IMG/VR virus record: IMGVR_UViG_3300013131_000308
Coordinates: 1 to 20,374 of that record
Length of the DNA stretch: 20,374 nt
Origin: a virus
Strand: one strand, 5' to 3'
This document shows, in pieces, positions 2,918-20,374 of this stretch. The position numbers were made by a program, and so were the translations under genes. Numbering within the stretch: position 1 is the first letter of the stretch; each line of letters starts with the position of its first letter. Below the pieces are notes generated by a model that made no database searches, was not told where the DNA came from, and saw only the letters and a program-made list of their open reading frames with translations.

Positions 2918-2966
2918 CCTCTCTGTTACTACGGAGAGGGGTGAGGTTCTTCTCTAGGGGTGGGGA
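2918..2966. repeat. Intergenic palindromic repeat, copy 1
   Basis: A variant copy: arms CCTCTC (2918-2923) and GAGAGG (2934-2939), then the tail GGGGTGAGGTTCTTCTC and GGGGTGGGGAC. The right edge ends directly at the TAG of the hub-like gene (2967-2969). It fills the gap between two hub-like genes. Without a T-tract on the minus strand it is not an intrinsic terminator; mRNA 3'-end protection is possible. Confidence 0.8.
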
Positions 2967-4736
2967 CTACGGCATAATCGCCTGCGAGATGCCCAGCACA
3001 CGTAGGTTAAATTCAATCACCCCGCTGCTGCGCTCTCCCATCCCGCTCACAAATCCCGGCGCAAACGTCTCCGGCACGTAATAACTCATCGGTGTGCTTT
3101 CCCCGTGCACCATCGCCCGAAATTCAATCGTATGTTCCTGATACAACCCCGCCTCGCGCAGCACATCGGTCAAATCCATGCTCACATCCAGCGCCGCATT
3201 ATCCGTGCTGCGCGGGTTCCAAGGCCCGCCATAGGCCGCCGTCACATCCACCCCATTCACCAGCAGCCGCAGCCCCTTCGGATGATGATCCCCCTCGCGC
3301 ACCGCAAACGTATTCTCCGCCACCCACCGCCTGCCGTCCTGCTGCGAAATCACGATCGAATTCGTGCTCAATGGCCGCGTTTTCCACCTCGCCACCACCC
3401 GCACCACATCCGTCACCGCTTCGTCAAATTGGATTTTGAACTGCGCCCGCTTCCAATATCCCGCCTTCACCCCGTAACAAACCGTGTCCGTCCAAGTGTT
3501 CTCGCTCCAGTACGGGAACGTCTGCACCGCCACGTTCCGCACATCCACCGCCTCCAGCGCCCCCACCACCCGCTGCGCTGCATCCATCTGCCGCTTATCC
3601 GTCGTGCTCAGCTCTAAATCCGTCGTCACCCCGCCCATGCCCACGCGCTCGGTCACGCTCATCACCCAGAACACGTCGTCAATATCCGCCGTCCGCACCA
3701 CCAGCTCGTCCCGCCATATCTCCCCGATATAGCGCACCCGCACCCTATCCCCCGCCTGCAACCCTACTTGCGCCCGTGCGCTCAGCTTATACGTCCGCGC
3801 CTCAACCGCGTTCCGTTCCAACCACGCCGCCGCTGCATCGTATAACGCATTCGCCGCCAGCGTTTTCGCCGCCGTATTGTTCGCCACTGGCCCGATCTCT
3901 TTGAACGTCACATAACGCTCGATCACGCCATACGCCGCCACGCTCTCCGCATCCTCCAGATAGTATTCCGTCGCGCCGTTCTCCAGCACGCTCTGGATCA
4001 CATACGGATTCGTCCGCGTACTCCCCCCCAGCGTCAGCGCCGCCGCACCCTCACCCGTCCCCAAGGGCCTCACGCGGTTCGCCACCGCTTCTGTGCTGGC
4101 CGTCTCCGTCATGCGTTCGATCAATATCAAATCCCGCTGCCCGTACATCTCCCTCGCAACCAGCGGCACATTCGTCACGATCCCATCCGCCACCGCCCCG
4201 AATGCACCAATCGCCACGCTTTTCCACGCTGCACCGTCCCGCAGGTGTATCCCGCGTTCCTCGCACATCCGTATCAACGCCTTCAGCACACTCGCCCCGG
4301 CGAACCGCACCGTTTGCAGACCCAACCCGCCCTCAACCTCAACATCCCACCCGGCGATTGCCGCCAACTCCGCCGCAATCACCCACATTTCCTCATTCGT
4401 ATATACCCGGTTGCGCCCCACCGTCCGCCGCGTCAGCGCATCCAGCGCCCCCCGCGCCTCCACCCGCACCCTATCCCCCGCCGCCCCGCTATATTCCATC
4501 CGGCGGATAATCCCGCGCCCGATCTCGCGTGTGTTCCCGTCCTGCTCCACCCACACCCGCACCCAGCGCTCATTCGCGCACAATTCCAGCGCCCGACCAT
4601 CCCCGCCAGCAAATGCCAACGACAATCCGCCCGCCTCATCCAGCGCTCGCGTCACCGTCGCCTCTAGCAGCGCCACCGGCCCCGCGCCCAACCGCGTCAC
4701 CCCGTCCGCCGCATACACATCCGCCCACAACCGCAT
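2967..4736 (-). CDS. Tail-associated hub protein (Tal/Gp37-like)
   Basis: The first half of this 589-residue protein resembles the siphophage hub or tail-associated proteins that cap the tail tube below the distal tail protein: MRLWADVYAADGVTRLG, then RVWVEQDGNTREIGRGIIRR and a region around residues 110-175 with AGWDVEVEGGLGLQTVRF and SVLKALIRMCEERGIHLRDG. Residues 310-375 include VGLQAGDRVRVRYIGEIW, an OB-like pattern seen in such hubs. The C-terminal 200 residues look like an added beta-sandwich, possibly carbohydrate binding (WKTRPLSTNSIVIS ... HTIEFRAMVHGES). No muralytic peptidase motif is visible. The ATG directly follows the TAA of the fibre gene. The stop codon TAG lies exactly at the edge of the repeat at 2918-2966, so the last codons abut the repeat. 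Confidence 0.65.
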   Translation of the reverse strand: MRLWADVYAADGVTRLGAGPVALLEATVTRALDEAGGLSLAFAGGDGRALELCANERWVRVWVEQDGNTREIGRGIIRRMEYSGAAGDRVRVEARGALDALTRRTVGRNRVYTNEEMWVIAAELAAIAGWDVEVEGGLGLQTVRFAGASVLKALIRMCEERGIHLRDGAAWKSVAIGAFGAVADGIVTNVPLVAREMYGQRDLILIERMTETASTEAVANRVRPLGTGEGAAALTLGGSTRTNPYVIQSVLENGATEYYLEDAESVAAYGVIERYVTFKEIGPVANNTAAKTLAANALYDAAAAWLERNAVEARTYKLSARAQVGLQAGDRVRVRYIGEIWRDELVVRTADIDDVFWVMSVTERVGMGGVTTDLELSTTDKRQMDAAQRVVGALEAVDVRNVAVQTFPYWSENTWTDTVCYGVKAGYWKRAQFKIQFDEAVTDVVRVVARWKTRPLSTNSIVISQQDGRRWVAENTFAVREGDHHPKGLRLLVNGVDVTAAYGGPWNPRSTDNAALDVSMDLTDVLREAGLYQEHTIEFRAMVHGESTPMSYYVPETFAPGFVSGMGERSSGVIEFNLRVLGISQAIMP

Positions 4737-6146
4737 TTATGTACCACCCCACACACCATAGCGGCTAATTGCAATATTTTTTGCAGTCGCCGTCGTCGTG
4801 ATCGCCAGCACACACGCGCCCAACTCCGTGCTGCTCACGGGCAAATTCGTGGTCACAGCCACCTCCGGTCCATCGTTCACGCTGAAATATGCCGCGCTCA
4901 CGCCCGGAACCGTCCGCACCCGCAGCACATACCGCGTACTCGCCGCAATCGCCCCCACCGTCGCGCTCACTGTCTGCGCTGCACCCGTGCTGACCACGCC
5001 CACCCAGCCCGCATCTCCCGCCACTGTCGAATACCGGAACGCCGCCGCACTCGTCAACAGCGTATCCACATTCGTCGGCGTGGCCGCAAACACCCCAACC
5101 CACAGCCGTAAATTCGTGATGTCCGATCCCGTCCGCAACACGCATTCAAACACCGGACTATGTGCCAGCCGCGTCAGGTTATAGCTGCTTGTCCGTCTCC
5201 CGCCAAACGTCCCCGCCGTCGCCGCAATCGCCTGATTCACATACGTATCATCCGCATCGTTGGAGGCCGTCACTGCCCCCGCGCCGCCCAGCGTCCCCGC
5301 CGCGATGCCCACGCTCGCCCACGTTGCCGCCGCCGCCCGTTCATACCACCCGTTCCCGCCACGCCCCACCAACCTCGGCGCACTCACCGCCGCCAGATGC
5401 TCCACCCAGTTTGTGCCGTTATAAACTAGCGTCATCTGCTGATCGGCCAGCCCCAGATACCGATACCCGCCCGGCTGCACCAACCGGATATTCCCCGTTC
5501 CTGCCACGCCATCGCGCACCCGCACCACCCGCGCCGCGCTCGCCCCGCTGATCGTCAACACATCCCCCGCCGTGCCGCCGCTGATCGTATCCAGATCGTC
5601 ACTCGCCGCGCTCGCCTCAGTGTCCACCGTGTGCCGCGTCCGCGTCCGCGTCACTGCCCCGCTGCTGATCGTCAGCGCCGCGCTCGCACCCCACGTCGTA
5701 TACGTGCTCAATGGCATCAGCGCCGCCACCCACGCCGTCCCACTGTAGATCAACATGCAATACAGCGCCGTGTTGTTTAGCACCATGTCCGCGCCCGTCG
5801 CCGTGCTGATATTCCCCGTGCCGTGTTTCACCGTCACCACCCGCGCCGCATTCGCGCACCGCAGGTACATAATCCGCCCCGCCGCGCCGTTGTTGATCGT
5901 ATCCATATCATCACTGGCCGCGCTCGCCTCAGTGTCCGCCGTCACATGACTCTTCGTCGGCGTGATCGCCCCACCGCTGATCGTCAACGCTTCCGCGCTG
6001 CCTATCGAGATGCGATCAAACGCCTGCACCCCGTTCAGCGTATCCTCCACCGCGCTTTTCAGGTTCGCAATAGGCGTAGTCACGTCTACCGCATCAATCC
6101 CCTGCCCATCCACAATCCCGCTTACGTTTACGCTGATCGTCGTCAT
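4737..6146 (-). CDS. Tail fibre protein with a duplicated domain
   Basis: This is a 469-residue protein. After a short N-terminal part (SVNVSGIVDGQ...LKSAVEDTLNG) it has two copies of a ~95-residue domain at roughly residues 50-140 and 154-251. Each begins ALTIS(G/S)GA(I/V)T, then DTEASAASDD(M/L)DTI, and ends in GTGNI...YSGTAWVA or YNGTNWVE. This domain is common in phage fibres and contains beta strands with a glycine turn. The C-terminal 200 residues (from about GNGWYERAAAATW) look like a receptor-facing beta-sandwich with FEC, LRLWVGVF and VLRVRTVPGVSAAYFSVNDG. The start overlaps the TGA of the small upstream gene in ATGA. Host-surface binding is inferred from domain type. Confidence 0.65.
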   Translation of the reverse strand: MTTISVNVSGIVDGQGIDAVDVTTPIANLKSAVEDTLNGVQAFDRISIGSAEALTISGGAITPTKSHVTADTEASAASDDMDTINNGAAGRIMYLRCANAARVVTVKHGTGNISTATGADMVLNNTALYCMLIYSGTAWVAALMPLSTYTTWGASAALTISSGAVTRTRTRHTVDTEASAASDDLDTISGGTAGDVLTISGASAARVVRVRDGVAGTGNIRLVQPGGYRYLGLADQQMTLVYNGTNWVEHLAAVSAPRLVGRGGNGWYERAAAATWASVGIAAGTLGGAGAVTASNDADDTYVNQAIAATAGTFGGRRTSSYNLTRLAHSPVFECVLRTGSDITNLRLWVGVFAATPTNVDTLLTSAAAFRYSTVAGDAGWVGVVSTGAAQTVSATVGAIAASTRYVLRVRTVPGVSAAYFSVNDGPEVAVTTNLPVSSTELGACVLAITTTATAKNIAISRYGVWGGT

Positions 6147-6392: not shown

Positions 6393-6401
6393 CCCCCTCC
6401 C
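6393..6401 (-). promoter_or_regulatory. Repeat-derived ribosome binding site
   Basis: The minus-strand GGGAGGGGG is seven bases (AAAAGAC) before the ATG at 6385, an ideal Shine-Dalgarno, and is at the same time the outer arm of palindromic repeat copy 2. In a folded mRNA the arm would be paired with its partner, which could reduce translation of this small gene. Confidence 0.6.
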
Positions 6402-6434
6402 TATCGCTATGGGGAGGGGTCGGGGGTGGGGACT
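6393..6434. repeat. Intergenic palindromic repeat, copy 2
   Basis: The arms CCCCTCCC and GGGGAGGGG surround a short centre containing ATCGCTAT, followed by the tail TCGGGGGTGGGGACTT. It lies between the Dit-like gene (stop five bases away) and the 80-residue gene. The left arm also serves as the latter gene's ribosome binding site. Confidence 0.85.
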
Positions 6435-6437
6435 TCT

Positions 6438-7295
6438 TCACACCCACCGCTCCAAATACCGCAGATTCACCGCCGCCGCATCGCTCGCCTGCGAGAATTT
6501 AATCTCTATCGTGTTCGCCCCCGGCAGCAGCCGCAGCCACCCCGCGCTCGCGCTGAACTGCGTCCCGTATACCCCCACATCGTTCAGCCGCACATCCCGC
6601 CGCCGGCTATCAATCACCAGATTGCTGCCCGCGCTCACCGTCCCCGCGTACCGCACCTCGTCCTCAACCGCCCCGTCCCGCACCCGTCGGATAATCACAT
6701 CACCCGCACTCTGCCCCACATCCGGCCTCACGGTGGCCTGCAAATACGTGTACGCATTTCCGACATTCGTCAGCGTCGTCGTCGTGCTAACCCCACTCGC
6801 GCTCACCGGAGCGCCCCCGCCCCACTTCGCCCCGCCGCCCCATGTCGCCCCACCGCCCCACACCACGCTATTCCCCGATCCATACCAGAACGGATCGCTC
6901 GCCTGCCAGACGATCTTCATCCGCATCCGCCTGTCGGGCACAGCCTGCGCCGCATCCGCATGATTGATCGAATTCACCCGCACCCACGCCCACCGTTCGC
7001 TCTGGTTCGCGCTCGTCGGCTGCATATACAACCGCCCCACGCCCACATCTGCCATCCGCCGGAACGCATCCACATCCGTTGTTGCCGTCTCATACGCATG
7101 ATGCAACCAGAACTCCGCCCGCACCGTCCCGATTTCGTTCAGCCCGCGCCCATCCCCCAGCACATCAAAACCGCCATCCGCACCCGGCATCCGCACCGTT
7201 TGCGTCACCAGATCGGCGAAATTGTCACTCGCATTAATCTGCGTATTCGGGAACGTGTACGTATACGTCCCCCGCACAAACCGCGTTAGCCTCAT
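6438..7295 (-). CDS. Distal tail protein (Dit-like)
   Basis: This 285-residue protein directly follows the tape measure gene (ATGA overlap at 7292-7295), the usual position of the distal tail protein that forms the hexameric ring joining tube to tip. The N-terminal part has the expected pattern: MRLTRFVRGTYTYTFPNTQ, then FADLVTQTVRMPGADGGFD, and later RMRMKIVWQASDPFWYGSG, a late-strand motif I associate with Dit proteins. A linker of three WGGGA units (VVWGGGATWGGGAKWGGGA) follows, and then a C-terminal beta-sandwich ending in GANTIEIKFSQASDAAAV. The TGA stop lies five bases from the edge of the downstream palindromic repeat at 6393-6434. The N-terminal Dit assignment is fairly good; the C-terminal domain's role is unknown. 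Confidence 0.75.
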   Translation of the reverse strand: MRLTRFVRGTYTYTFPNTQINASDNFADLVTQTVRMPGADGGFDVLGDGRGLNEIGTVRAEFWLHHAYETATTDVDAFRRMADVGVGRLYMQPTSANQSERWAWVRVNSINHADAAQAVPDRRMRMKIVWQASDPFWYGSGNSVVWGGGATWGGGAKWGGGAPVSASGVSTTTTLTNVGNAYTYLQATVRPDVGQSAGDVIIRRVRDGAVEDEVRYAGTVSAGSNLVIDSRRRDVRLNDVGVYGTQFSASAGWLRLLPGANTIEIKFSQASDAAAVNLRYLERWV

Positions 7296-9508
7296 ACCCC
7301 ACCTCGCGCCGCCAGCAGGCTGCCAATGCGCCGCTCGAATGCATCTGCCGCCGCCCGTCCGCCCGCCGCATCATTCGCGTAAATCGTTAGCCCGCTGATG
7401 GATACCCCGCCCATCGCACCGTTCGGCACAATTGCCCCACTCTGCCCCGGTACGAATAGCTCCGGCCCCCGCTCCCCCACCACATACGGCTGCCCCCCGT
7501 TCACCGGCCCGCCATCCGCCCGCAGCTGCGAAAACGCAATACGCGCCATGAAATCATTCCCGCCCGCCGCTGCTAATGTCCGCTGCCATAGTTGATCGTT
7601 GCTCAATCCAGATGTTGCCTCCCGCGCCGTTTGCTTGCTGGCCTCAAAATTCTGGATCGCGGCGATGCCATCAATCAACCCTTTGATGAACGTAGCCACC
7701 GGTTGCAACAATCGCACAATCCCATCGGCCAACGCCTGTACATACGGCTGGATCGCAGTCCACACGTTTTGAATCGTCGTCACAAAATCACCAATTGTCT
7801 GAACTACGGTGCCAATAAAATCGTTGACCGCCGGTAGCCCGCTGGTGACAAACCAATCGTACACATCCTCCAGCACCGGACTGATGAAATCCCACACGCC
7901 ACCGATGAAATCGAACAATCCCTGCACCGCCGGTAACACCGTGTTTTCAATAAATCGCTGTATCTCCGGCAGCGCCGTTGTCACAAACCAGTCATACACC
8001 GCCGCCAACGCCGGGCTGATCGTATCCCACACCCCCCCGATCCAGTTGAACAACCCCTGCACCGCTGGTAACACCGTGTTCGTTACATAATTGCCAATGG
8101 CCGGCAACGCATCATTTACGAACCAGTTGTACACCGCCTCCAGTGCAGGTCTGACCATCTCCCACACGCCCCCTAAAAATGCCCAGAATTTGCCGAGCAG
8201 CGGCATTACCTGTGTGTCTATAAAATCGCGTATCCCCCCGAAATTGGTCATGTATGCCGCGCCTAGTGCCACCACCGCTGCAATCACAATCCCGATGGGC
8301 GACGCGATCATTCCAATGGCCGTCCCCAACGCCGCAACCAGCGGCCCTACCAGCACCAGCGCCCCCGCCAGCATCACCAGCGTTTGTGTAACCTCCGGGT
8401 TTTGAGTCATCCACTCGGTCACGCGGTCAATCACGGGCATCAATTGGCTAATCAGATTGTTCAGCGTAGGCAGTAGTGCCGTGCCGATGGTGATCCCAAC
8501 GCCATTAATGCCCGCATTCAATAAATCCCACTGTGCTGTAAAACTCTGATTCTGTATTTCCCGTGCCGCCGCTGTTGCTCCATCCAGCCCGTTGCTGAAT
8601 GCCGCCAGCGCATCCACCGCGTTATCGCTGCCGAACGCCGTCACGCCGCGCAACGCCTCTACACTGCCCACTGCCCCCGCCATGTTGCTCTGAAACGTCG
8701 GCGATTGTGTGCTCAGTTTTTTGAATACGCCGACCAGTCCCAGATTGGCAATGGCCGCGCTGCCGCTTTCCAACCCCAACTCGCCCATCGCCTTCTTCAT
8801 TTTCTCGTTCGGGTTCAATAGCGCCGTCATCATCGCGCCCAGCTGCGTCGCGCTCTGGCTCGTGCTAGTGCCCTGCGTTGTCAAATACGCCATCATCCCG
8901 CCCAGATCATCGAACGAGATGCCCAACGAACTCGCCAAACCTGTTACCTGCGGCAGCGCGCTCGCAAACTCATCCATCGAGCCAGTGCCTTTGCCAACCG
9001 TCTGCGTCAGCACATCGCTGGCGAACCCCGCTTGATCCGCGCTGAATCCGTAACTATTCATGATCGAGATCAGCGCACTCGTCGTCCCCGCCAGATCAGC
9101 ATTACCCGCCTCACTGGTGGCCACCGATGCGTTCAAAATCGCCATGTGCGAACTCGCGTCCGCCACACCGCCCGCGATGTCATACATCGCATCCGCCACC
9201 GCCTGCGGCCCCGAACGCGCTTTCCGCCCGACATTCAAAATCTCTTTGCTCATCGCTGCCGTTTCGCTGCCCGTCATCCCCATCACAGCAGCCACATTCG
9301 TCATGCTCTCGTCAAAATCCGCCGCCGCTTTGACGCTCACTCCCAGCCCTGCCGCAATCGGCGCGGTTGCCAGAGTCATGGTTTTGCCCACGCCCTGTAA
9401 TTTGCTGCCCAGCCCCGCCAGCCCGCTGTCAGCCGACTTAAGTTTGTTATCCCAATCGCTGGCATCCAGCGTCAGCAGCCCATACAAACTCGCAACCTGT
9501 GTCGCCAT
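7292..9508 (-). CDS. Tail tape measure protein
   Basis: At 738 residues this is the second-longest run of coding in the tail block and has the hallmarks of a TP901-type tape measure protein. These are a coiled, Ala/Gly/Lys-rich start (LKSADSGLAGLGSKLQGVGK), the core FDESMTNVAAVMG and SGPQAVADAMYDIAGGVADA, a strongly hydrophobic stretch near residues 372-420 that could span a membrane, and a Gly-rich C-terminus. Residues about 440-575 hold three 45-residue tandem repeats containing GGVW, a YxWFV motif and TVLPAVQGLF. By the usual rule of about 0.15 nm per residue, the tail would be near 110 nm (inference). It follows the G/GT frameshift pair and precedes Dit. The ATG has GAGGTG upstream. Confidence 0.9.
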   Translation of the reverse strand: MATQVASLYGLLTLDASDWDNKLKSADSGLAGLGSKLQGVGKTMTLATAPIAAGLGVSVKAAADFDESMTNVAAVMGMTGSETAAMSKEILNVGRKARSGPQAVADAMYDIAGGVADASSHMAILNASVATSEAGNADLAGTTSALISIMNSYGFSADQAGFASDVLTQTVGKGTGSMDEFASALPQVTGLASSLGISFDDLGGMMAYLTTQGTSTSQSATQLGAMMTALLNPNEKMKKAMGELGLESGSAAIANLGLVGVFKKLSTQSPTFQSNMAGAVGSVEALRGVTAFGSDNAVDALAAFSNGLDGATAAAREIQNQSFTAQWDLLNAGINGVGITIGTALLPTLNNLISQLMPVIDRVTEWMTQNPEVTQTLVMLAGALVLVGPLVAALGTAIGMIASPIGIVIAAVVALGAAYMTNFGGIRDFIDTQVMPLLGKFWAFLGGVWEMVRPALEAVYNWFVNDALPAIGNYVTNTVLPAVQGLFNWIGGVWDTISPALAAVYDWFVTTALPEIQRFIENTVLPAVQGLFDFIGGVWDFISPVLEDVYDWFVTSGLPAVNDFIGTVVQTIGDFVTTIQNVWTAIQPYVQALADGIVRLLQPVATFIKGLIDGIAAIQNFEASKQTAREATSGLSNDQLWQRTLAAAGGNDFMARIAFSQLRADGGPVNGGQPYVVGERGPELFVPGQSGAIVPNGAMGGVSISGLTIYANDAAGGRAAADAFERRIGSLLAARGGV

Positions 9509-9554
9509 TCACGCACCTCTGCATAATTTTTGCACTCCCCACTCACCTCATTTT

Positions 9555-9666
9555 CCCCTCTCCCTACGGAGAGGGGTCGGGGGTGAGGTTCTTCTCCTAT
9601 TCCTTCCCCTCCCTATCGCTATAGGGCAGGGGTCGGGGGTGGGGATTTTTCAGGGGGTGGGGACTC
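9555..9666. repeat. Composite of palindromic repeats (three units)
   Basis: Unit one (9555-9597) has arms CCCCTCTCC and GGAGAGGGG with the tail TCGGGGGTGAGGTTCTTCTC. Unit two (9605-9645) has CCCCTCCC and a slightly decayed right arm (AGGGCAGGGG), and tail TCGGGGGTGGGGA. Unit three (9651-9664) is only a tail. The same three-part arrangement recurs at 16358-16466, joined by the same TTCTTCTCCTATTCC. It fills the gap between the chaperone extension and the tape measure gene. Confidence 0.85.
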
Positions 9667-9667
9667 T

Positions 9668-9883
9668 TTACCGCTTCCGCCGCGCCCCCCACGCCTCAAC
9701 CTCGCGGTTCGCGTTGTAGATCGCCAGCACATCCTCCGTGTCCTGCACGCTCATCCCGTCCACCTCTGCCGGCGTGATGTGCAGCAGCAGCGCCAGTTGC
9801 GCCCGTTCGATCCTATCCTCGTCCCCATCGTCCCACGCCACGCTGCCCGGAGACTTCACCGCCATTACATACGCCCCGCCTAG
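9668..9883 (-). CDS. Tail assembly chaperone extension (GT product of -1 frameshift)
   Basis: This frame lies in -1 relation to the G gene and has no credible start of its own, but reads well from the slippery site onward: LGGAYVMAVKSPGSVAWDDG, then ERAQLALLLHITPAEV and MSVQDTEDVLAIYNANREVEAWGARRKR. The last part resembles the T domain of phage tail chaperones. If ribosomes slip at 9889-9883, the product is the 126-residue G protein fused to 71 further residues (197 in total), with the last Asn read as Lys. In lambda and many siphophages the G and GT forms occur together and guide tape measure and tube assembly. An internal ATG at about 9868 could give a shorter separate protein, but gene order and the heptamer favour frameshift. 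The stop TAA is four bases from a palindromic repeat. Confidence 0.75.
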   Translation of the reverse strand, partial: LGGAYVMAVKSPGSVAWDDGDEDRIERAQLALLLHITPAEVDGMSVQDTEDVLAIYNANREVEAWGARRKR

Positions 9884-10260
9884 TTTGGGCTGTTTCGGGC
9901 CTCTGCCATCGCCTCGATCAACGGCTGAAATTTCACATCCAGCAGCCAATCCAACGACTCCGCTTTCCGCCAATCCAGCTCCGCCGGTGCATCCTCCGCC
10001 AACCACTCACGCGGCACGCTCACCAGCACCTCGCACAGCAACACCTCGCGCCGTTCCTCAATTGCATCCAGCCGCCCCAACGCCTCCGCCTTCGCCACCG
10101 TCAACGTCCGCAGCTCATCCGCCGTCAGATCAGGCCGCGCCGGGTTCTCCAGCAGCACGCCGATCTGCACCAGTTCTCCACTCACCTGCCGCCACTCTTT
10201 CGACCACCGCCGCGTCACGCGCCGAAAATCGAACTGCGGCTTATTCGCCTTTTCCGCCAT
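9880..10260 (-). CDS. Tail assembly chaperone (G-like)
   Basis: A 126-residue protein (MAEKANKPQFDFRRVTRRWS...) located between the major tail protein and the tape measure, the standard position of the tail assembly chaperone. It is charged and helical, with a Trp-rich middle (VPREWLAEDAPAELDWRKAESLDWLLDVKF). Its last codons are CCC-AAAC followed by TAG, forming the canonical C CCA AAC slippery heptamer in the zero frame, so the TAG is probably bypassed in a fraction of translations. In family terms, G-like proteins bind the tape measure and deliver tail tube subunits. The start has a GGGGG tract about 5 nt upstream. The gap before it (10261-10402) carries the interrupted palindromic repeat. 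Confidence 0.75.
   Translation of the reverse strand: MAEKANKPQFDFRRVTRRWSKEWRQVSGELVQIGVLLENPARPDLTADELRTLTVAKAEALGRLDAIEERREVLLCEVLVSVPREWLAEDAPAELDWRKAESLDWLLDVKFQPLIEAMAEARNSPN
9883..9889 (-). other. Programmed -1 ribosomal frameshift site
   Basis: On the minus strand the bases are CCCAAAC, read in the G frame as C CCA AAC and followed immediately by TAG at 9882-9880. This fits the X XXY YYZ rule (X=C, Y=A, Z=C): tandem slippage re-pairs CCA to CCC and AAC to AAA, after which the -1 frame continues for 71 residues to the stop at 9668. The site sits exactly where lambda-type phages shift between G and GT. A stop directly after the heptamer is typical and slows the ribosome. Downstream GC-rich sequence could form a stimulating structure, but I cannot show a convincing pseudoknot by eye. 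Confidence 0.8.
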
Positions 10261-10296
10261 TCACGCCCCCATGTTGGGTAACTTATCCGCTTCATT

Positions 10297-10391
10297 CCCC
10301 TCTCTCTACGGGGAGGGGGTGAATGCACAGGGGAATTTATACTTGTGCGCCATAGGCGTTCCCCTGTGCATTCAGGGGTGAGGTTCTTCTC
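10297..10391. repeat. Palindromic repeat interrupted by a second element
   Basis: The left part (CCCCTCTCTCTACGGGGAGG, 10297-10316) and the tail (GGGGTGAGGTTCTTCTC from 10375) are separated by the nested palindrome 10320-10374. Removing 10323-10381, or the equivalent bases, restores a normal unit. It lies between the major tail protein and the tail chaperone. Confidence 0.8.
10320..10374. mobile_element. Nested 55-bp palindromic insertion (MITE-like)
   Basis: Perfect 16-bp inverted repeats TGAATGCACAGGGGAA (10320-10335) and TTCCCCTGTGCATTCA (10359-10374) enclose 23 bases that themselves hold a short CGCC-ATA-GGCG hairpin. The bases GGGGTGA occur on both sides (10316-10322 and 10375-10381), compatible with a 7-bp target duplication that overlaps the outermost arm. 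It carries no gene and would need a transposase elsewhere. Confidence 0.6.
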
Positions 10392-10402
10392 AGGAGCGAG
10401 GG

Positions 10403-12727: not shown

Positions 12728-12740
12728 CGTCCCCCCGTTC

Positions 12741-12773: not shown

Positions 12774-12784
12774 CTTTCTCGCTG

Positions 12785-13189
12785 CTACGCAAACGTCACG
12801 TTGACGTTTACCCCGCTGGCGTACCATTTTCCGTTGTACGCCACCACGCTGAAGCGGTCGCCTACCGCGCCGCCGAACGTCCCCACATCTGCCCCACTCC
12901 CCGCGCCGTTCAGTCCGCTGGCGATGGTCACAGTATGCGCGTTCGCAGTTAGCGCGATCACCGTTAGCTCGTTCCCGTCGTCTGTGGATGCTGTCGGGGC
13001 GGCCAGCGTCATCGCCGCCACTCCCGCTTTCGTCAGCACCACATACCCGCTTTTGATCGAGATCGCCCCGTTCGCGGCTGCCGGCAGCACCGTGCGCTGC
13101 ACGCCTCCGGTCAGGTTGCCCACCACATCCCCGGTCACGTTCCCCACCACATCCGCCGTCACCCCGTTAGGAAAAGCCGTGCTGCCCAT
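12785..13189 (-). CDS. Fibre-like capsid decoration protein
   Basis: The 134 residues begin with a glycine-rich repeated segment (ADVVGNVTGDVVGNLTGG: two eight-residue units VVGN(V/L)TG(D/G)). A compact beta domain follows: AISIKSGYVVLTKAGVAAMT, then ASTDDGNELTVIALTANAHT and VGDRFSVVAYNGKWYASG. The repeat resembles the turn-rich stalks of phage fibres, and the second part matches a small domain I know from fibre and head decoration proteins ('LTKAGVAAMTLAAPT', 'FGGAVGDRFSVVAYNGKWY'). Its place directly after the major capsid gene and before the terminator suggests a head fibre rather than a tail fibre. The start has GGGGGG three bases upstream. Binding partner and function are inference. Confidence 0.65.
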   Translation of the reverse strand: MGSTAFPNGVTADVVGNVTGDVVGNLTGGVQRTVLPAAANGAISIKSGYVVLTKAGVAAMTLAAPTASTDDGNELTVIALTANAHTVTIASGLNGAGSGADVGTFGGAVGDRFSVVAYNGKWYASGVNVNVTFA

Positions 13190-13197
13190 CGTCCCCC

Positions 13198-14097
13198 CTA
13201 GCTCGGATTATGGCCGTACACCCAGCGCCAGTCATCGCAACCGAACGAGTAATGCAGCTTCAGTTCATAGACGACTTCGGTGGTCGTCTCATGAGTCATC
13301 ATCACCTGCACCGCCTCGCGGTTGTACCAGTTCACCACTTCCGAGCGCCATGTGTCGTCAATCATGAACCACGCATTGGTATCGCTCAGCCGCTGCCACG
13401 AAATCACGCTGAATCGCCCCGCCTGCGGGTTGATCGCGTTGTTCGCGCTGGCGGGGTCGAGAGCACTGTTGGCAATCTCCAGCGCAGTGTCTTCCAGTTC
13501 CGGCGGCACCAACAACACATTCGGCATCAGACCGATTTCGTTGCCCTTGTCGTCCGCAAAACGCATCATCGCAATGCGGGTCGCGCTCACGCCCGCCTTG
13601 CTCAGCGCGGTTGTCCCCTTGTTCGAGTACGTCCCCGCGCTCTTGTTCGGCGATTTCGGATGGTCAGTCGCGCACAGCGCCTTGCCATCGCTCCATGTCG
13701 CACCGGTAAACGCCGCGTTGAACAACCCCGCCGCGTCAATCTCCATTTTCTGCTCGGCGCTAATGCCCGCACGCCGCACAATGTCCCCGATGCGCCCGTA
13801 CTGATCGTTCAGCAGCAGCCGCTTCTCGATAACCAACTCCACCGGGTACTCAACGTGAGTGTACGACTGGGTGTACAGCTGATCGAGATCGAGGCGACCC
13901 TTTTTGCCGCCCTTCTTGTACTGGTTCCACGCATCCGGCGACATGCCGCCCATGCCCGAACCCTTTTCCTCGGCGATCGTGCTGCCGCGCACGCTGAACA
14001 AGCGCCCGCGCAGACTCGGCACACGGCTTTGTCCCACCTCGAAATGGTGGTAAATGATCGGTGTCAACAGACTATCAAATTGTTCTTGGCGAAGCAT
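13198..14097 (-). CDS. Major capsid protein (Mu gpT-like, HK97 fold)
   Basis: This 299-residue protein starts MLRQEQFDSLLTPIIYHHFE and has the features of Mu-type major head subunits. These include LVIEKRLLLNDQYGRIGDIV, the loop ALCATDHPKSPNKSAG with 'ATDHP', a helix LSKAGVSATRIAMMRFADDKG, and the 'GLMPNVLLVPPELEDTALEI' strand-helix. The C-terminal axial part contains AWFMIDDTWRSEVVNWYNRE. Length and motif order fit the family well. The ATG has a strong GGGAGG site. It lies between a cement-like protein and the head fibre-like gene. No separate maturation protease is visible in the window, and no cleavage site is obvious. Confidence 0.88.
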   Translation of the reverse strand: MLRQEQFDSLLTPIIYHHFEVGQSRVPSLRGRLFSVRGSTIAEEKGSGMGGMSPDAWNQYKKGGKKGRLDLDQLYTQSYTHVEYPVELVIEKRLLLNDQYGRIGDIVRRAGISAEQKMEIDAAGLFNAAFTGATWSDGKALCATDHPKSPNKSAGTYSNKGTTALSKAGVSATRIAMMRFADDKGNEIGLMPNVLLVPPELEDTALEIANSALDPASANNAINPQAGRFSVISWQRLSDTNAWFMIDDTWRSEVVNWYNREAVQVMMTHETTTEVVYELKLHYSFGCDDWRWVYGHNPS

Positions 14098-14116
14098 CGT
14101 ATATCCTCCCTATCGC

Positions 14117-14542
14117 CTAGTTCGTCCAATGCTCGCCGTGATTAATCATCACCAGCGTCCATTCGTCAGCGGTACTATCGGCCACCACCTGCACATCTGC
14201 ATTGCTGCTGGTGGTCACGCTCATCGCCCCCGCGCTGCCGGTGATGTCCAGCGTCGCGCCAATCGCCCGTGCGCTCGCGTCGTACACCGCGTACACCGCA
14301 TCCGCATCGGTAATCACCTCGACCTGCGTCGTGCTGGCGGTGCCGCTCGTGGTGTTCAGCACCACGCCCACCAGCGCCCCATCGTTGGTCGCCGCCAGAT
14401 CAATCTCGCCGCTTTCCAGATTCACCAGATCGCCCTTGTACAGGGTCTCAGTGTCTTTGAAGGTCAGTTTCTGAATCGTCGGCTGCCCGCCGCTCAGGCG
14501 GTACATAAACCGGAATCCGGCTGTCACATCAACTACTGCCAT
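14117..14542 (-). CDS. Head decoration / cement-like protein
   Basis: A 141-residue beta-rich protein (MAVVDVTAGFRFMYRLSGGQ...). It contains FKDTETLYKGDLVNLESGEI followed by DLAATNDGALVGVVLNTTSG, a pattern known from capsid cement or DUF2190-type proteins that stabilise the expanded capsid ('YKGDLV', 'GALVGVV'). The frame extends upstream to a TTG at 14557, but the ATG at 14542 is chosen because GGAGAG lies nine bases before it. It stands between scaffold and major capsid, where decoration genes are typical. A small stem-loop lies in the gap before it (14572-14601). The C-terminus ends in ADEWTLVMINHGEHWTN. Confidence 0.7.
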   Translation of the reverse strand: MAVVDVTAGFRFMYRLSGGQPTIQKLTFKDTETLYKGDLVNLESGEIDLAATNDGALVGVVLNTTSGTASTTQVEVITDADAVYAVYDASARAIGATLDITGSAGAMSVTTSSNADVQVVADSTADEWTLVMINHGEHWTN

Positions 14543-14571
14543 TGTCGTTCTCTCCAATCACGTTGTTGTAG

Positions 14572-14601
14572 GCTACCCGTCCGCCGAAGCCTCCGGGCAG
14601 C
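14572..14601 (-). other. Small inverted repeat between scaffold and cement genes
   Basis: The arms GCTGCCCG (14601-14594) and CGGGTAGC (14579-14572) on the minus strand pair over eight bases with one G-T wobble and a 14-base GC-rich loop that includes TTCG. There is no T-tract after it, so it is not an intrinsic terminator. It may be an mRNA processing or stability element between scaffold and capsid-cement cistrons, a place where phages often adjust relative yield. It could also be a chance hairpin in GC-rich DNA. Confidence 0.3.
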
Positions 14602-14632
14602 GTTTGCGATTGGCATCTCGCCATCCGTCTAC

Positions 14633-15223
14633 CTAGCCCTCGCGGGCCGCTTTGGCCTTCGCGCTGATATACTGCTCATCCGTCATGCCGAATCGGCGTG
14701 CCGCTGCGCGTTCATCCTCGCTCAGGCTGACAGTTTTCCGACCTGCCGCACCCGCCCCCGCATCCAGATCGGGCGCGATCTTGGCCGTTAGTCGCTGCCA
14801 GTTTGCATCCAACCACGTCGCCAGCTTTTCCGGTGCATAGTCCCCCGGAACCAGCGCGCGCAAGTCCTCCCGAACCTGCCCGATGCGCGCTTCGTTGCTG
14901 GCGCGAATGATGCCCTCCAGTGTTTTCGCCCTGTCCTCGAACGGCTTCAGGCTCTCCACCTCTGCCGCCCGCTGCCGGGCCAGTTCCTCATAATTGCCCT
15001 GCTCGGCCAGCCGCTTCTGTTGCGCCTCGCCCAGCCCTTTGATCGTCGTTTCCAACTCGTTCAGCCGATGCCGCCGCGACGCGCTCTCTTTGTTCACATC
15101 GCTCAGCCGCGCCTCCAGGTCAGCAAACCGCTTCTGCGCCCACTCCGGCAGCCCGCTTAAATCATTCTGCGTGCCACCCTCAGCCGCTGGCATCCCGCCC
15201 GCAGCCTGCGTATCATCCGTCAT
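14633..15223 (-). CDS. Capsid scaffold protein
   Basis: A 196-residue highly charged, Ala/Glu/Arg-rich protein beginning MTDDTQAAGGMPAAEGGTQN. The middle (about residues 30-110) is one long coiled-coil type helix: FADLEARLSDVNKESASRRH, NELETTIKGLGEAQQKRLAE, ARQRAAEVESLKPFEDRAKT. This low-complexity helical profile directly before the major capsid cluster is typical of scaffold proteins. The C-terminus (SLSEDERAAARRFGMTDEQY) resembles the end region of such proteins. I see no protease catalytic motif. The frame extends to GTG 15250, inside the promoter-like element, so the ATG at 15223 is preferred; a GGGGGG tract lies nine bases before it. Confidence 0.75.
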   Translation of the reverse strand: MTDDTQAAGGMPAAEGGTQNDLSGLPEWAQKRFADLEARLSDVNKESASRRHRLNELETTIKGLGEAQQKRLAEQGNYEELARQRAAEVESLKPFEDRAKTLEGIIRASNEARIGQVREDLRALVPGDYAPEKLATWLDANWQRLTAKIAPDLDAGAGAAGRKTVSLSEDERAAARRFGMTDEQYISAKAKAAREG

Positions 15224-15247
15224 TAGCTCACGCCCCCCTGCTCCATC

Positions 15248-15276
15248 CACCTATTCTCACTCTACCACCCTGTCAA
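15248..15276 (-). promoter_or_regulatory. Promoter-like element upstream of the scaffold-capsid unit
   Basis: On the minus strand the element begins TTGACA (15276-15271) followed by GGGTGGTAGAGTGAGAA and TAGGTG. It matches the element at 20178-20206 in 25 of 29 positions. Read as sigma-70, TTGACA is a perfect -35; a 17-base spacer leads to TAGGTG, a weak -10. Alternatively TGGTAGAGT inside it resembles an extended -10 at short spacing, or the element could be an operator. It lies 25 bases before the scaffold ATG and just downstream of the palindromic repeat. A capsid-unit promoter here would fit the terminator at 12741-12773. Confidence 0.5.
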
Positions 15277-15292
15277 GTGTCACCCCTCAGTT

Positions 15293-15336
15293 CCCCATCC
15301 CCATTGCGATGGGGATGGGGCTAGGGGGTGGGGACT
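15293..15336. repeat. Intergenic palindromic repeat
   Basis: A perfect 12-bp palindrome arm (CCCCATCCCCAT ... ATGGGGATGGGG, 15293-15320) is followed by the tail CTAGGGGGTGGGGACTTC, whose last bases form part of the minor head gene's TGA. The arm sequence differs from the other copies on both sides in a compensatory way (CATCC/GGATG instead of CTCC/GGAG), which keeps the pairing. Confidence 0.85.
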
Positions 15337-16338
15337 TCACCCCTCCATCACCTCGCGCAGCGTCTTTTCGCGTGCCATATCCCCGTACACCGGGTCGCTA
15401 TATGTCCCCACGAAATCCCGCAGCGTCGCCCGCCCACTCTGTAACATCTCCAGCGCGCCCGGCCCCGCCATCGCCAACTGGTTCTCTTCTGGCAGCGCCG
15501 CGAACCACGCCTCTCCCCCCTGCACCTGCCGATCCACCCCGCGCAGCACCGGCACACCGATGCACCGCCCGTTATGATGGTCAATCACCGCCGCACCAAT
15601 CGGCAACCGCGTCCCGTGCAGCGCCACACACGCCAAACACGTCCGCGCGTCCAAACTCGCCACCCGCACCTGATACCCCAGAATGTCCGCGTTCGCATTC
15701 TGGTACACCTGCGATCCGCGCCTGTAGCTGTGGATATACAATGTCCGCATCATCGTGTTCGCCTGTGCTGCCGGCAGCCCCTCCGTCGCGTTCGTCACCG
15801 CCGCTGCCACCCGCCTCGGCCCCCACCCCTCCACCAGCCCGCGTATCGCCTGATTCTGCACCACATCCAGCACCGCGCCGCTATACCGCTGCACCTCGCT
15901 CGCCCACGCATCCCCCTGCACATAATCCACCAGCGCCGCCACAGCATCCGGGTTCGGCTTATTCCACGCCGCCCCGATCTGCGCCAGCATCCGGCCATCT
16001 GTGCCCTGTAGCGCCAGCGTTTGCGTCAATCGCCCTGCCGCCTCCGCCCCCTTTGCCTGCACCTCCCCCCCCGCATCATTCACCGCCTGCGCGTTCCGCC
16101 GCATCACGGGTTCTAGGTCAGCCACCAACGCCCGCAGCACCGGGTTATCAGGCCGCAGGCGTTCGCCCGCCGCCTCCAACCGTGCCGCCTCCGCATCCAG
16201 TTCGGCCAACCGTTGCGCCACGATTCCACTCGTGCTGCGCCCCGCCACCGCCCCCAGAACCGCCCGCGTCGCCCGCGCATAGTTCCGGTCTAGCAAATCG
16301 CTCACGATCTCATTCAGCGAACGCGCCACACTGCTCAT
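15337..16338 (-). CDS. Minor head protein (Mu gpF-like, PF04233-type)
   Basis: This is a 333-residue protein. The C-terminal half has the Mu-F head morphogenesis signature: AQANTMMRTLYIHSYRRGSQ, then ASLDARTCLACVALHG with C234 and C237, and DHHNGRCIGVPV with H254/H255 and C259, a probable metal- or disulfide-stabilised core. Before it, residues 1-180 are helical and charged. The end (FAALPEENQLAMAGPG, then ATLRDFVGTYSDPVYGDM) also matches the family. These proteins assist head assembly and DNA passage near the portal. The ATG at 16338 has GAGG five bases upstream; a GTG one codon earlier is not preferred. The TGA shares bases with the adjacent repeat at 15293-15336. Confidence 0.85.
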   Translation of the reverse strand: MSSVARSLNEIVSDLLDRNYARATRAVLGAVAGRSTSGIVAQRLAELDAEAARLEAAGERLRPDNPVLRALVADLEPVMRRNAQAVNDAGGEVQAKGAEAAGRLTQTLALQGTDGRMLAQIGAAWNKPNPDAVAALVDYVQGDAWASEVQRYSGAVLDVVQNQAIRGLVEGWGPRRVAAAVTNATEGLPAAQANTMMRTLYIHSYRRGSQVYQNANADILGYQVRVASLDARTCLACVALHGTRLPIGAAVIDHHNGRCIGVPVLRGVDRQVQGGEAWFAALPEENQLAMAGPGALEMLQSGRATLRDFVGTYSDPVYGDMAREKTLREVMEG

Positions 16339-16357
16339 CACATCCTCTTTCTCTTCT

Positions 16358-16466
16358 CCCCTCTCCCTACGGAGAGGGGTCGGGGGTGAGGTTCTTCTCC
16401 TATTCCCCTCCCTATCGCAATGGGGAGGGGTTAGGGGTGGGGACTATTCTCAGGGGGTGGGGATCA
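16358..16466. repeat. Composite of palindromic repeats (three units)
   Basis: Unit one (16358-16399) is the CCCCTCTCC/GGAGAGGGG type with the GAGG tail. Unit two (16405-16443) is the CCCCTCCC/GGGGAGGGG type with TTAGGGGTGGGGA. Unit three (16452-16464) is a tail only. The order and joining bases match the composite at 9555-9666. It fills the gap between the cement-like protein and the minor head gene, three bases from the former's TAA. Confidence 0.85.
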
Positions 16467-16874
16467 TTACACCGCCGCCGTGCCGCGCACCAGCTTCACA
16501 ATCAGCGTGCTCGTGCTGATCGCCACGCCCAGCACCACCGGATACCACCCCGTCGTCACATCGCCCACCGGCGCAATCCCGCCCGCCGTCGCGCTCAGCA
16601 CATACACGCCCTTCGCCACCGTGCCGCCAACGGTGAAATCGTCATCTTCCACCACCAATCGCACCGGCTGCCCGCTGCTCGCCCCGTTCACAGCGATGCC
16701 CACCGCGTTCGCCGTCGCAGCACTCGCGTTCGCATCCGCCAGCTTCACGCGCCCATCGGTCGCATCCACATAGCACACCTGTCCCGCCGTCACCGTCGCG
16801 CCCGCAATCCCGTCCCGATACACCGCATTCGCCCCCGGCACCACATCCGCCGCCGTCACCGTTACATCAGCCAT
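16467..16874 (-). CDS. Small cement-like structural protein
   Basis: The 135 residues (MADVTVTAADVVPGANAVYR...) are Ala/Val/Gly/Thr-rich and beta-like with turns: GATVTAGQVCYVDATDGRVK, AVGIAVNGASSGQPVRLVVE, GGTVAKGVYVLSATAGGIAP and WYPVVLGVAISTSTLIVKLV. The pattern of 'TAGQ-CYVDATDGRVKLADAN', 'GIAVNGASSGQPVRL' and 'VLSATAGGIAP' resembles small phage capsid cement or decoration proteins (DUF2190-like), though it lies between portal and minor head rather than next to the capsid gene. The ATG overlaps the portal TGA in TGATG, with GGGGGG six bases upstream. The TAA is three bases from the repeat cluster at 16358-16466. Confidence 0.7.
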   Translation of the reverse strand: MADVTVTAADVVPGANAVYRDGIAGATVTAGQVCYVDATDGRVKLADANASAATANAVGIAVNGASSGQPVRLVVEDDDFTVGGTVAKGVYVLSATAGGIAPVGDVTTGWYPVVLGVAISTSTLIVKLVRGTAAV

Positions 16875-18274
16875 CACGCACCCCCCATATTGAACTCACT
16901 AAACCCCGGTAGATTCCCCGCCAGCGCCGCCAACTGATTTTGTTGTTGCGCTGCCTTCTCAGCCATCAACGCCGCGATTTTGTCCGGGTCATACCCGTAT
17001 GCCGCCGCGATCAGCCGCAAAAACTCATGCTCGCCCACGCTCTCCCGCACCTTCAACGCATTGTCAATAATCTCCGTCCGGTTGCGGATTTCCGCCTGCC
17101 GCCATCGGCACATCCACCGCGCCGCCGCCGGAGGCAGCACGCTCCCGAACACCCCCGCCAACCGGTGCGCGAACGCCATCACGTCCTCCCACACATTCCC
17201 GTTTCGCACGCTGAACACCTGCACTTTCTCCAGCAGGCCGTTCTCACGCTCTTTCAGCGCCTCGCCACTTTGGCTATCCCCGCCCATCATGCTCGGCAGC
17301 GGTGTCCGGCTGATCGTCCCGATCTGGTTAATCAGCCAATCGGCCTGCGCGATAAAAGGTACAATCTGCCCCTGCTCCATCACGCCCGCATCCGCCACCT
17401 GATCGTTCGTCAACCCGTCCGGCGCGATCACCACCCACATCCCCGGCGACAAGTTCGCTGGCGGGTCAAACCCCCGCGCCACCCGCACCTGAAACGCCGT
17501 CAACTCGCTCGTCAGCACCATGCTCACCAGCGTTCGATTCAGCGCATCCTGTAGCGGCACTACGTTCGCAATCTCCGAGCGCCCATAAAACCGCCCCGTC
17601 CGCCGCTTGTTCCGCAGATGAAACACCGGAACGCCCAGTGCCCCGCCCGCGTTATCCACCCACTCCGCCGCCTCTAGTTGGATGAACTCCCCGCCCACTC
17701 CCACCGTTGCCCCATCCCGATAGAGCAGCTTTTCCACCCGGTCAGGCAGATACACATTCACCCGCTTATCATCGCCCTCGTCCCACACTTTCACCGCCCC
17801 CACCATCTGCTGCGCCATCCGGTCATACACCGGAATCACGCCCACCCGCCCGTCCCACGCGCTCTCATGCGTCAGCCGCACCTGCTGCGCCTCATTGTCC
17901 CAACTCACCATCACGAACGCATCCCCATCACACACCGCGTCCGCATGCACATCCATTTGCAGCCCGTCGAACCGATTCGCCGCCATCACCCCCGCCGCCC
18001 ACTGGCTCGCCGCATCGTTATCCGTCACGATGCTCTCGACCACCAGCCGATCAGCCATTCGGTCAACCACCATCTCGCAATAGTTGTCATTGAACTGGTC
18101 AGTCACCGTCCCGCTGATACGCAGCATGTCCCGCATCGCGCTCGTCAGTTTCGCCCGATGCTCCCCCGCGTTGTACTGCCGCCACAGCGCCACGCCCTGC
18201 CCCCACACCGTCACGCCGTCCTGCCAGTCCACCGCCACCACATCGCCCAACATCCGCTGCAAATCGTTAAGCAT
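16874..18274 (-). CDS. Portal protein (SPP1 gp6-like)
   Basis: A 466-residue protein directly after the large terminase, as in most tailed phages. Features match SPP1-type portals. The N-terminal helix region contains VALWRQYNAGEHRAKLTSAM and later QFNDNYCEMVVDRMADRLVV. A middle beta wing includes DAVCDGDAFVMVSWDNEAQQ and RVGVIPVYDRMAQQMVG, and a segment FYGRSEIANVVPLQDALNRT with 'GRSEI..V.PLQDALNR', which is characteristic. The crown includes SLTGEAL-like 'DSQSGEALKERENGLLEKVQ'. It forms the dodecameric DNA channel. The ATG overlaps the terminase stop by eight bases. The C-terminal tail is Gln-rich (EKAAQQQNQLAALAG). Confidence 0.9.
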   Translation of the reverse strand: MLNDLQRMLGDVVAVDWQDGVTVWGQGVALWRQYNAGEHRAKLTSAMRDMLRISGTVTDQFNDNYCEMVVDRMADRLVVESIVTDNDAASQWAAGVMAANRFDGLQMDVHADAVCDGDAFVMVSWDNEAQQVRLTHESAWDGRVGVIPVYDRMAQQMVGAVKVWDEGDDKRVNVYLPDRVEKLLYRDGATVGVGGEFIQLEAAEWVDNAGGALGVPVFHLRNKRRTGRFYGRSEIANVVPLQDALNRTLVSMVLTSELTAFQVRVARGFDPPANLSPGMWVVIAPDGLTNDQVADAGVMEQGQIVPFIAQADWLINQIGTISRTPLPSMMGGDSQSGEALKERENGLLEKVQVFSVRNGNVWEDVMAFAHRLAGVFGSVLPPAAARWMCRWRQAEIRNRTEIIDNALKVRESVGEHEFLRLIAAAYGYDPDKIAALMAEKAAQQQNQLAALAGNLPGFSEFNMGGA

Positions 18275-19508
18275 ATCTCCGCCCTACCGCCTTAATCGGC
18301 TTCTTCGGTTCCTCGTTTATCATTTCCCACGCCCCGCTGCTTGCATCCACCTGATCGTCATGTTCGCCAAAGGGGAATGCCGTCAATTCCTCGATATACG
18401 CATCCGCCCACGCCCGATCCGCCAGATGCACCAGCCCCAGCGCCGCCCGCGCCGCAAATGGCAGCACTCTTGTCACCTTATCTACATGCGCCGTATATCC
18501 GCGTATCACATGCCGCGCCAGCCGCCGATCTTTCGCCAGCGCCTGTATCGCCCGCGTCATATACCCCGCCTGCTCGAATCCCTGCACCACCTCCGCCCCA
18601 TCCGCCAGCATCACATCCGCAATGAACCTCGGCAGATCGTGTAACTCCACCCGCCCCCGCGCCACATCGCTGATCGTATGCTCCCCGTTCGCGTGTGCAT
18701 CCATCCTCAGCCCCACCGTATAGTCCGCCCCGGTTCGGCTGCTCATTGCCAAATCCCAGTACCGCACCGCCCTCACCACCTGCGGTACAACTCGCACCCT
18801 CGGCTCAAACCACGCCCGTTTGATAATCCCGCCCTCCGCAGGTCGAGGCTCTTGCATATATAGCGCCGCAAACGAGTATTCCCCCTGCGTTCGCGCTATA
18901 TCCCTCAGCGCCCCCGCGTCATATCGCTCCGGCCATAGCACCGCTCCCACCTCTCGCCCCAGCGCATCCCCCCCCACCGCCAGCGCGGGCAGCACCAGCG
19001 TCTCCCACTTATCCCCCTCGCGCTTCAGCAGCCGCCCGGTCAGATCGTCCTGATGCCACCGCGTCGCCATCACGATCACCGCCCCGCCCGGCTCCAGCCG
19101 CGTATACAAATCGTCCGTATACGAATCCCAAATTTTATCCCTATACGTTTGCGATTCGGCCTGCTCACGGTTTTTTACCGGGTCATCCAGCACCAGCAGA
19201 TGCGCCCCTTTGCCCGTCGCGCCGCCACCCATCCCCAGCGCGTCCGCCCCGCCTTCCTCGTTCGTATCCGCGATATTCCACTCCATCACGCTCTGGCTGT
19301 CCCCCGCCAGCGTCGTTCCCGGAAAGATCGCCCCATACGCCCTCGACCTCAACAAATTTCGCGCCGTCCGGCTGTTTTTGTTCGCTAACCCCTGCCCGTA
19401 GCTCACCAGCATCACGCGGTGTCCCGGATTGCGCCCCAAATGCCATATTGGATACAATCGGCTCACCGTCAATGTTTTCCCGTGTCTCGGTGGCATCGCA
19501 ATAATCAA
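18267..19508 (-). CDS. terL: Terminase large subunit, main part (ATPase C-terminal portion and nuclease)
   Basis: 413 residues of a large terminase, the packaging motor. Motifs visible: Walker A-type MPPRHGKT at residues 5-12, Walker B LLVLDD near 104-109, coupling motif MATRWHQDD at 147-155, and nuclease-domain motifs RYWDLAMSS (D252) and GEHDDQVDA (381-389). The frame starts at TTG 19508, only four residues before the Walker motif, so the N-terminal adaptor segment is missing. That segment is encoded in the +1 frame by 19723-19505. With one more base in the G run at 19525-19530 the two would join into a 485-residue protein of normal length. TTG 19508 overlaps the upstream TGA (TTGA) and has GGAGG ten bases before it, so coupled translation of a split protein is also possible. 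Confidence 0.88.
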   Translation of the reverse strand: MIIAMPPRHGKTLTVSRLYPIWHLGRNPGHRVMLVSYGQGLANKNSRTARNLLRSRAYGAIFPGTTLAGDSQSVMEWNIADTNEEGGADALGMGGGATGKGAHLLVLDDPVKNREQAESQTYRDKIWDSYTDDLYTRLEPGGAVIVMATRWHQDDLTGRLLKREGDKWETLVLPALAVGGDALGREVGAVLWPERYDAGALRDIARTQGEYSFAALYMQEPRPAEGGIIKRAWFEPRVRVVPQVVRAVRYWDLAMSSRTGADYTVGLRMDAHANGEHTISDVARGRVELHDLPRFIADVMLADGAEVVQGFEQAGYMTRAIQALAKDRRLARHVIRGYTAHVDKVTRVLPFAARAALGLVHLADRAWADAYIEELTAFPFGEHDDQVDASSGAWEMINEEPKKPIKAVGRRYA

Positions 19509-20206: not shown

Positions 20207-20318
20207 CCACCCCGCCTCTCCCCCCCTCTCCATGTAATGGGGAGGGGGCAGGGGGTGGGGTTCTTCTCGCATCATGCTCCGCACAAGCCACCCGCCACGC
20301 CGCGATAATATCCGCCAT
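20181..20318 (-). CDS. Possible small ORF whose C-terminus is repeat-derived
   Basis: ATG 20318 opens a 45-codon frame (MADIIAAWRVACAEHDARR...) with GGGGGG six bases upstream. The first 19 residues look like a genuine helical protein start, but from TPPPAPSPLHGEGGRGG onward the frame is simply the translation of the palindromic repeat at 20220-20268, and the TAG falls in the promoter-like element. I read it as a small or truncated gene whose 3' end was replaced by the repeat, or a chance frame. No function can be given. Confidence 0.3.
   Translation of the reverse strand: MADIIAAWRVACAEHDARRTPPPAPSPLHGEGGRGGVVDRVIQWG
20220..20268. repeat. Intergenic palindromic repeat
   Basis: The arms CCCCCTCTCCAT and ATGGGGAGGGGG (with one G-T-type mismatch) around a centre GTA, then the tail CAGGGGGTGGGGTTCTTCTC. 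It lies about 15 bases upstream of the small terminase promoter-like element, in the same orientation as the other copies. Confidence 0.85.
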
Positions 20319-20334
20319 CCCGATCCCCCCTATT

Positions 20335-20374
20335 CCCCTCTCCATGTAATGGGGAGGGGTTAGGGGTGGGGTTC
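20335..20374. repeat. Palindromic repeat cut by the window edge
   Basis: The arms CCCCTCTCCAT and ATGGGGAGGGG around GTA, with tail TTAGGGGTGGGGTTC running to the last base of the window. It is nearly identical to the copy at 20220-20268 and lies just upstream of the possible small ORF. Confidence 0.85.

Follow-up and report, generated by a model that had tools for sequence, protein, structure and literature searches.

The window, by which we mean the whole stretch of DNA analysed here, is a 20,374-base IMG/VR virus fragment carrying a siphovirus-like structural module (7292..19508), with every gene on the - strand; the tape measure (7292-9508), major capsid (13198-14097), portal (16874-18274) and large terminase (18267-19508) genes were recognized. 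This module of co-oriented genes is the context of ten small repeat units found at eight sites, all on the + strand and each comprising a C-arm, a G-arm and a G-rich tail; the units outnumber the sites because those at 9555 and 16358 hold two units each, in the same orientation. An earlier note on this DNA had described such units, with paired C-rich and G-rich arms and an asymmetric tail, and their presence at these sites was confirmed, far above chance. The same note called the sequence a prophage, a state that is not demonstrated for this virus fragment.

Type A units read CCCCTCTCC-CTAC-GGAGAGGGG-TCG-GGGGTGAGG and are located at 9555..9588 and 16358..16391 (+). Each is followed, in the same orientation, by a type B unit (9606..9644, 17 nt past the type A unit, and 16405..16442; +), which has the arms CCCCTCCC/GGGGAGGGG and the tail GGGGTGGGG, and then by an extra tail remnant, GGGGTGGGGA, close to a stop codon (9654..9663 near stop 9668 and 16454..16463 near stop 16467; +), so that 9555-9663 and 16358-16463 share one arrangement with a single orientation. 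Another type B unit (6393..6431, +) consists of the C-arm, the loop TATCGCTAT, the G-arm GGGGAGGGG, the linker TCG and the tail GGGGTGGGG; stop 6438 comes after its tail and the start codon of the next gene is at 6385. Three further units depart from these forms, being degenerate (2914..2966, +), interrupted (10297..10383, +) or variant (15293..15333, +): in the first the arms have collapsed, and TTCTTCTCTA and a second tail, GGGGTGGGGA, come after them, ending at stop 2967 (TAG); the second is type A-like, with another palindrome (10320-10374) interrupting it; and the third has the arms CCCCATCCCC/GGGGATGGGG and the tail GGGGTGGGG, with stop 15337 next to it. The last two units (20223..20260 and 20335..20371, +) lie in frame inside an ORF that is read whole in the overlapping contig L006 (608-1063), where a further unit follows the one placed at the end of the window. 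The motif GGGGTGRGG occurs 14 times in the window, 13 of them on the + strand, with 2.1 expected and none of 100 shuffles reaching 14; GGRGAGGGG occurs 12 times (1.75 expected). The full core GGRGAGGGG-N3-GGGGTGRGG was found five times in the forward direction and never in reverse or in the reversed control.

The tail of each type is the mirror image of its G-arm with T in place of A (arm GGAGAGGGG with tail GGGGTGAGG; arm GGGGAGGGG with tail GGGGTGGGG). This pairing was concordant in all 35 Nostoc units (18 A/A and 17 G/G) and in 302 viral units (277 A/A and 25 G/G) against 3 discordant, a viral figure that counts overlapping loci more than once. Holder et al. (2015) described a class II purine intrastrand triplex motif, as PIT elements or TM_ECO (PMC4666352), and, judged by their sequence, our units are of this PIT/TM (potential intrastrand triplex) class of architecture, the triplex fold itself being potential only. 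They share with it a C-stem, a short loop, a G-stem, a 3-nt linker and a mirrored G-rich third strand with T opposite A, as well as the TTA and CCG linkers, the high copy number, the mostly intergenic location and the inverted pairs in chromosomes. They differ in that unit A, whose G-arm on inspection is GGAGAGGGG, falls outside the exact TM_ECO consensus (CCCTCNCCCN3-6GGGNGAGGGN3GGGNGAGGG). Moreover, TM_ECO is reported to be intergenic in E. coli, to have a high copy number, to favour neither strand and to be unconnected with phages or plasmids (PMC4666352), whereas here the units fill phage genomes on one strand. A search of Rfam with the repeat units gave no match. With regard to MITEs, which have terminal inverted repeats and a target duplication, composite elements in the unit-bearing bacterial genome G001 have outward-facing tails at both ends, and the window units lack these. 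In short, these are small dispersed repeats of about 34-40 nt, of the potential-intrastrand-triplex/REP-like kind; the class is already known, and its strand-locked life in phages appears to be new.

Units of this kind were present in dozens of IMG/VR contigs among the matches listed, and a scan of IMG/VR with the full type A pattern gave at least 119 stretches, an incomplete sample enriched for perfect units in which some contigs may include host sequence and in which contigs were clustered by nucleotide similarity only. Among 50,697 annotated phage records, real units were found in one, Virus Rctr41k. One Anaerolineae genome contains 423 core copies, and the description of the repeats as host-type therefore holds for their kind; it does not extend to a link with the phage's own host. 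The exact window tail (the pattern ending TTCTTCTC) matched two genome records, no other viral contig and none of 395 other Anaerolineae genomes. Capsid homologues in Anaerolineae were distant (at most 42% identity), and searches with the tape measure and with the type B loop pattern found nothing.

A comparison with relatives whose major capsid proteins are 60-87% identical, and whose gene order is common, bears on how the units arrived. Units are present at four junctions of the window, which measure 142, 159, 125 and 86 nt; in the unit-free relatives L013, L022 and L014 the same junctions mostly span a few nucleotides or the genes overlap. The junction holding the 9606..9644 unit, for instance, is a few nucleotides long in L013 and L022, and at 15250-15337 L022 carries a longer insert of unrelated sequence. 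The opposite case is the portal junction, at which L022 has a unit and the genes of the window overlap. As the relatives have both filled and empty junctions, the units do not belong to fixed sites as an ancestral trait; they were inserted. This result, together with tails lying next to stop codons more often than uniform placement predicts, supports the earlier suggestion of a mobile repeat with a preference for gene ends.

In the window, tails end 1, 6, 5, 3 and 4 nt before stops 2967, 6438, 9668, 15337 and 16467, respectively, and 19 nt before stop 10403. The five sites with a tail edge near a stop were thus recovered, at 1-6 nt. Contrary to what the note said of two of them, no tail shares any stop-codon base, and the units at 20223 and 20335 are away from a stop, inside their ORF. 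When placement was compared with chance, none of 100,000 random placements brought five of eight marks as near to stops. In the viral sample, 138 of the 182 distinct units among the IMG/VR matches listed were outside called genes; single units between co-directional genes were oriented tail-to-stop in 70 cases and tail-to-start in 20, again among the matches listed. On the same basis, 26 tails were within 10 nt of a stop, with 12 expected from uniform placement in the gap, and none of 17 units in the opposite orientation was this close. These figures rely on our own codon-model gene caller, except for Virus Rctr41k, for which the depositors' gene calls gave a like placement. The order seen in the sequences is stop, 0-14 nt, CCTCACCCC, hairpin, AG-rich stretch and next start; part of the proximity to stops must come from sparing the start region of the next gene. 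Since REPs are known to sit within 20 nt of gene 3' ends (PMC3733652), stop proximity alone is not new. Some units are in frame within genes and encode peptides such as LTPGPSPVGEG; no such peptide strings were found in the literature searched, and no related phage gene lacking the in-frame unit of contig G454 was found.

The units had also been said to share one orientation relative to transcription. The single orientation stands; within the window, because all genes are on one strand, it is identical to a shared DNA strand and the two cannot be separated. In related phages, units at other junctions were always antisense to late genes. Among the matches listed, 37 of 47 multi-unit viral contigs, a count that omits one cluster with palindromic composite elements, had every unit on one strand. 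An independent per-unit preference of 81% predicts 25.5 such contigs (P 0.0002), and one of 90% would predict 33.6, which does not differ significantly from the number seen (P 0.16). Whole viral contigs had strand counts of 26/0 over 43.5 kb, 9/0 over 52.9 kb, 7/0, 0/9 and 0/6. Pairs of units more than 1 kb apart, among the matches listed, were concordant in 426 cases and discordant in 17 in viral representatives, with one contig supplying most of these pairs, and 32 against 23 in the bacterial genomes covered. The orientation preference thus held in viral contigs, mostly one-stranded, but not in two bacterial genomes, whose tandem contexts, on the stretches of chromosome covered, were unbiased (23 vs 24 in G001; 13 vs 10 in Nostoc).

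We gave up a transcription-linked reading of the orientation in view of contigs whose genes lie on both strands. Where local genes are reversed with respect to the contig, 10 of 11 units among the matches listed stay on the contig's strand, a result from about five phage groups and our own gene caller; restricted to intergenic units, the strand-switch count was 4 tail-to-stop and 5 tail-to-start, mostly from the composite cluster. The clearest instance is contig G445, in which a + unit lies between the Mu-type portal and Mu F genes of the + strand, and another + unit adjoins the large terminase, which is on the - strand together with the tape measure. In addition, GC3 skew was computed separately for the genes of each strand, which takes out the transcription component, and the G-rich strand of the unit was the negative-skew strand in 6 of 6 independent contigs (two-sided sign P about 0.03, n=6); the composite-bearing contig G401, set aside from this comparison, had a skew near zero.

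Our preferred explanation, to which we give somewhat less than an even chance, is that the units are inserted into, or tolerated on, the lagging-strand template and that their direction is set by the DNA strand and not by individual genes. A common pool would supply repeats to phage genomes again and again, and they would survive chiefly in the spare space separating a gene's stop from the ribosome-binding site of the next gene, sometimes in frame within genes. On the GC-skew leading-sense strand, the presumed lagging-strand template, every unit reads 5'-CCTCACCCC-N3-CCCCTCTCC-loop-GGAGAGGGG-3', that is, an unpaired foot followed by a hairpin. The simplest mechanism would be that this form, as single-stranded DNA, is inserted at the fork into the template of the lagging strand, in the manner of IS200/IS605-type and REP transposases, which act on single-stranded DNA, and loss of the opposite orientation possibly reinforces the bias. 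IS200-type elements insert into the lagging-strand template (PMC6006769), and our units share with the IS200/IS605 family the foot-plus-hairpin form and a strand-tied orientation consistent with that template; they differ in having no transposase gene inside or adjoining them, and the single-strand step, the enzyme and the role of replication are our inference. Most lambdoid prophages run in the direction of host replication (PMC11253608), and insertion in a prophage state would tie the strand to the direction of the late genes. Against this reading, no clear unit was found beside the Y1 transposase loci (PF01797) of the unit-bearing genomes G001 (1 locus) and G002 (12 loci), and in the two unbiased bacterial genomes rearrangement or palindromic composite elements would have to mask such insertion. 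The data that tested the hypotheses had also served to form them. A more specific form, in which non-coding repeats travel as single-stranded hairpins caught only on the lagging-strand template, their direction recording replication and stop edges being preferred landing or survival sites, is rather doubtful.

Selection at the RNA level, gene by gene, is less likely than a strand-set direction, and we regard it as improbable. It supposes insertion either way, with only the orientation giving a C-rich tail and then a hairpin in the mRNA being tolerated or useful in operons, as the opposite one puts a G-rich stretch, prone to quadruplex or triplex formation, ahead of the next start codon. The excess of tails at stops agrees with it, as do the 121 tail-to-stop against 28 tail-to-start viral units between co-directional majority-strand genes among the matches listed, and the sense RNA of unit A, which is predicted to form a simple duplex hairpin (-20.1 kcal/mol, z -2.75). 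The earlier idea of a selected RNA structure just after stop codons is nevertheless weakened by the several units in frame inside genes, the junctions empty in relatives and the contig strand mostly kept where genes switch; the unbiased bacterial tandem contexts also argue against it, and PIT motifs had shown neither promoter nor terminator activity in earlier work cited in PMC4666352. A role as intrinsic terminators was rejected: in the sense direction, A/G-rich sequence and not a T tract comes after the hairpin, and a terminator scan of the window predicted no sense-strand site at any unit.

Still less probable is that insertion is unbiased and that, where the lagging-strand template carries the G-rich strand of a unit, the unit folds into a triplex or quadruplex, blocks the progress of replication and is lost by deletion. 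The stretch GGGGAGGGG-N3-GGGGTGGGG has four G runs, a motif related to the units formed a stable triplex in vitro and proved unstable at its loci in E. coli (PMC4666352), and such loss fits the relation of strand to GC skew; however, the same physics left no strand bias in the two bacterial genomes, and Holder et al. detected no triplex in vivo (PMC4666352).

It is very unlikely that the units are host REP/REPIN elements mobilised by a RAYT: they resemble the GTAG and CGTC families (PMC3733652) as dispersed, high-copy palindromes of similar size (20-40 nt for REPs), with an unpaired tag at one end, near-3'-end placement and some in-frame insertions, but their tag is CCTCACCCC or CCCCACCCC and not GTAG or CGTC, the window units pair directly instead of inverted, and the search for a RAYT-like transposase, which covered 13 Y1_Tnp loci in the two unit-bearing genomes G001 and G002, found none with a clear unit closer than about 1.5 kb and no RAYT flanked by repeats.

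Repeats of the REP and triplex types are among the commonest small repeats of bacteria, and there is no settled view of how they move. A phage genome is one compact replicating unit, which makes one-strand placement a sharp signature of insertion or of copy survival, and this placement suggests that one or the other is linked to the copying of phage DNA. If the direction of the units follows replication, such repeats could reveal the replication direction of uncultivated phages.

The repeat units also occur in interrupted, composite and tandem forms. The type A-like unit at 10297 (10297-10383, + strand) is split by a separate palindrome of 55 nt, TGAATGCACAGGGGAA ... TTCCCCTGTGCATTCA (10320-10374), which lies between the G-arm and the tail, a layout resembling the insertion of one repeat within a second one. 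In the Anaerolineae SJ7 genome (L042-L061), the chromosomal copies are organised as composite elements, roughly 110-150 bp long, in which two hairpins carry their tails outward; stop codons often lie 2-30 nt from the edges of these elements. In contig G429, positions 18533-19989 are taken up by inverted pairs of units arrayed in tandem, one period measuring about 335 bp.

Units are also found within genes. Upstream of the small terminase gene, in the contig overlapping the + end of the window, an ORF of 151 aa (L006:608-1063) reads through three of them in frame, and two in-frame units apiece are contained in the neighbouring ThiF (E1-like) and JAB-domain genes of the phage contig G454 (L244:5620-6516 and 6578-7507, - strand).

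The - strand of the window carries two copies of a 29-nt sequence, TTGACAGGGTGRTASAGTGRGRATAGGTG (15248-15276 and 20178-20206), both matching the IUPAC pattern with zero mismatches; the expected number of copies is 0. In the sense direction, each copy immediately follows a unit and shortly precedes a gene start; with TTGACA, 17 nt and TAGGTG, it looks like a repeated, putative promoter.

Among the relatives, about 1.15 kb interrupts the large terminase gene between residues 83 and 103 (L022:2051-3198 and L027:555-1702), in the manner of an intron or intein. The Mu F-like gene at L021:5344-6360, matched on the strand opposite to its neighbours, is a local inversion in a single relative.

Both the + end of the window (20374) and the end of L006 (4801) fall inside units, and therefore these repeats probably break metagenome assemblies.
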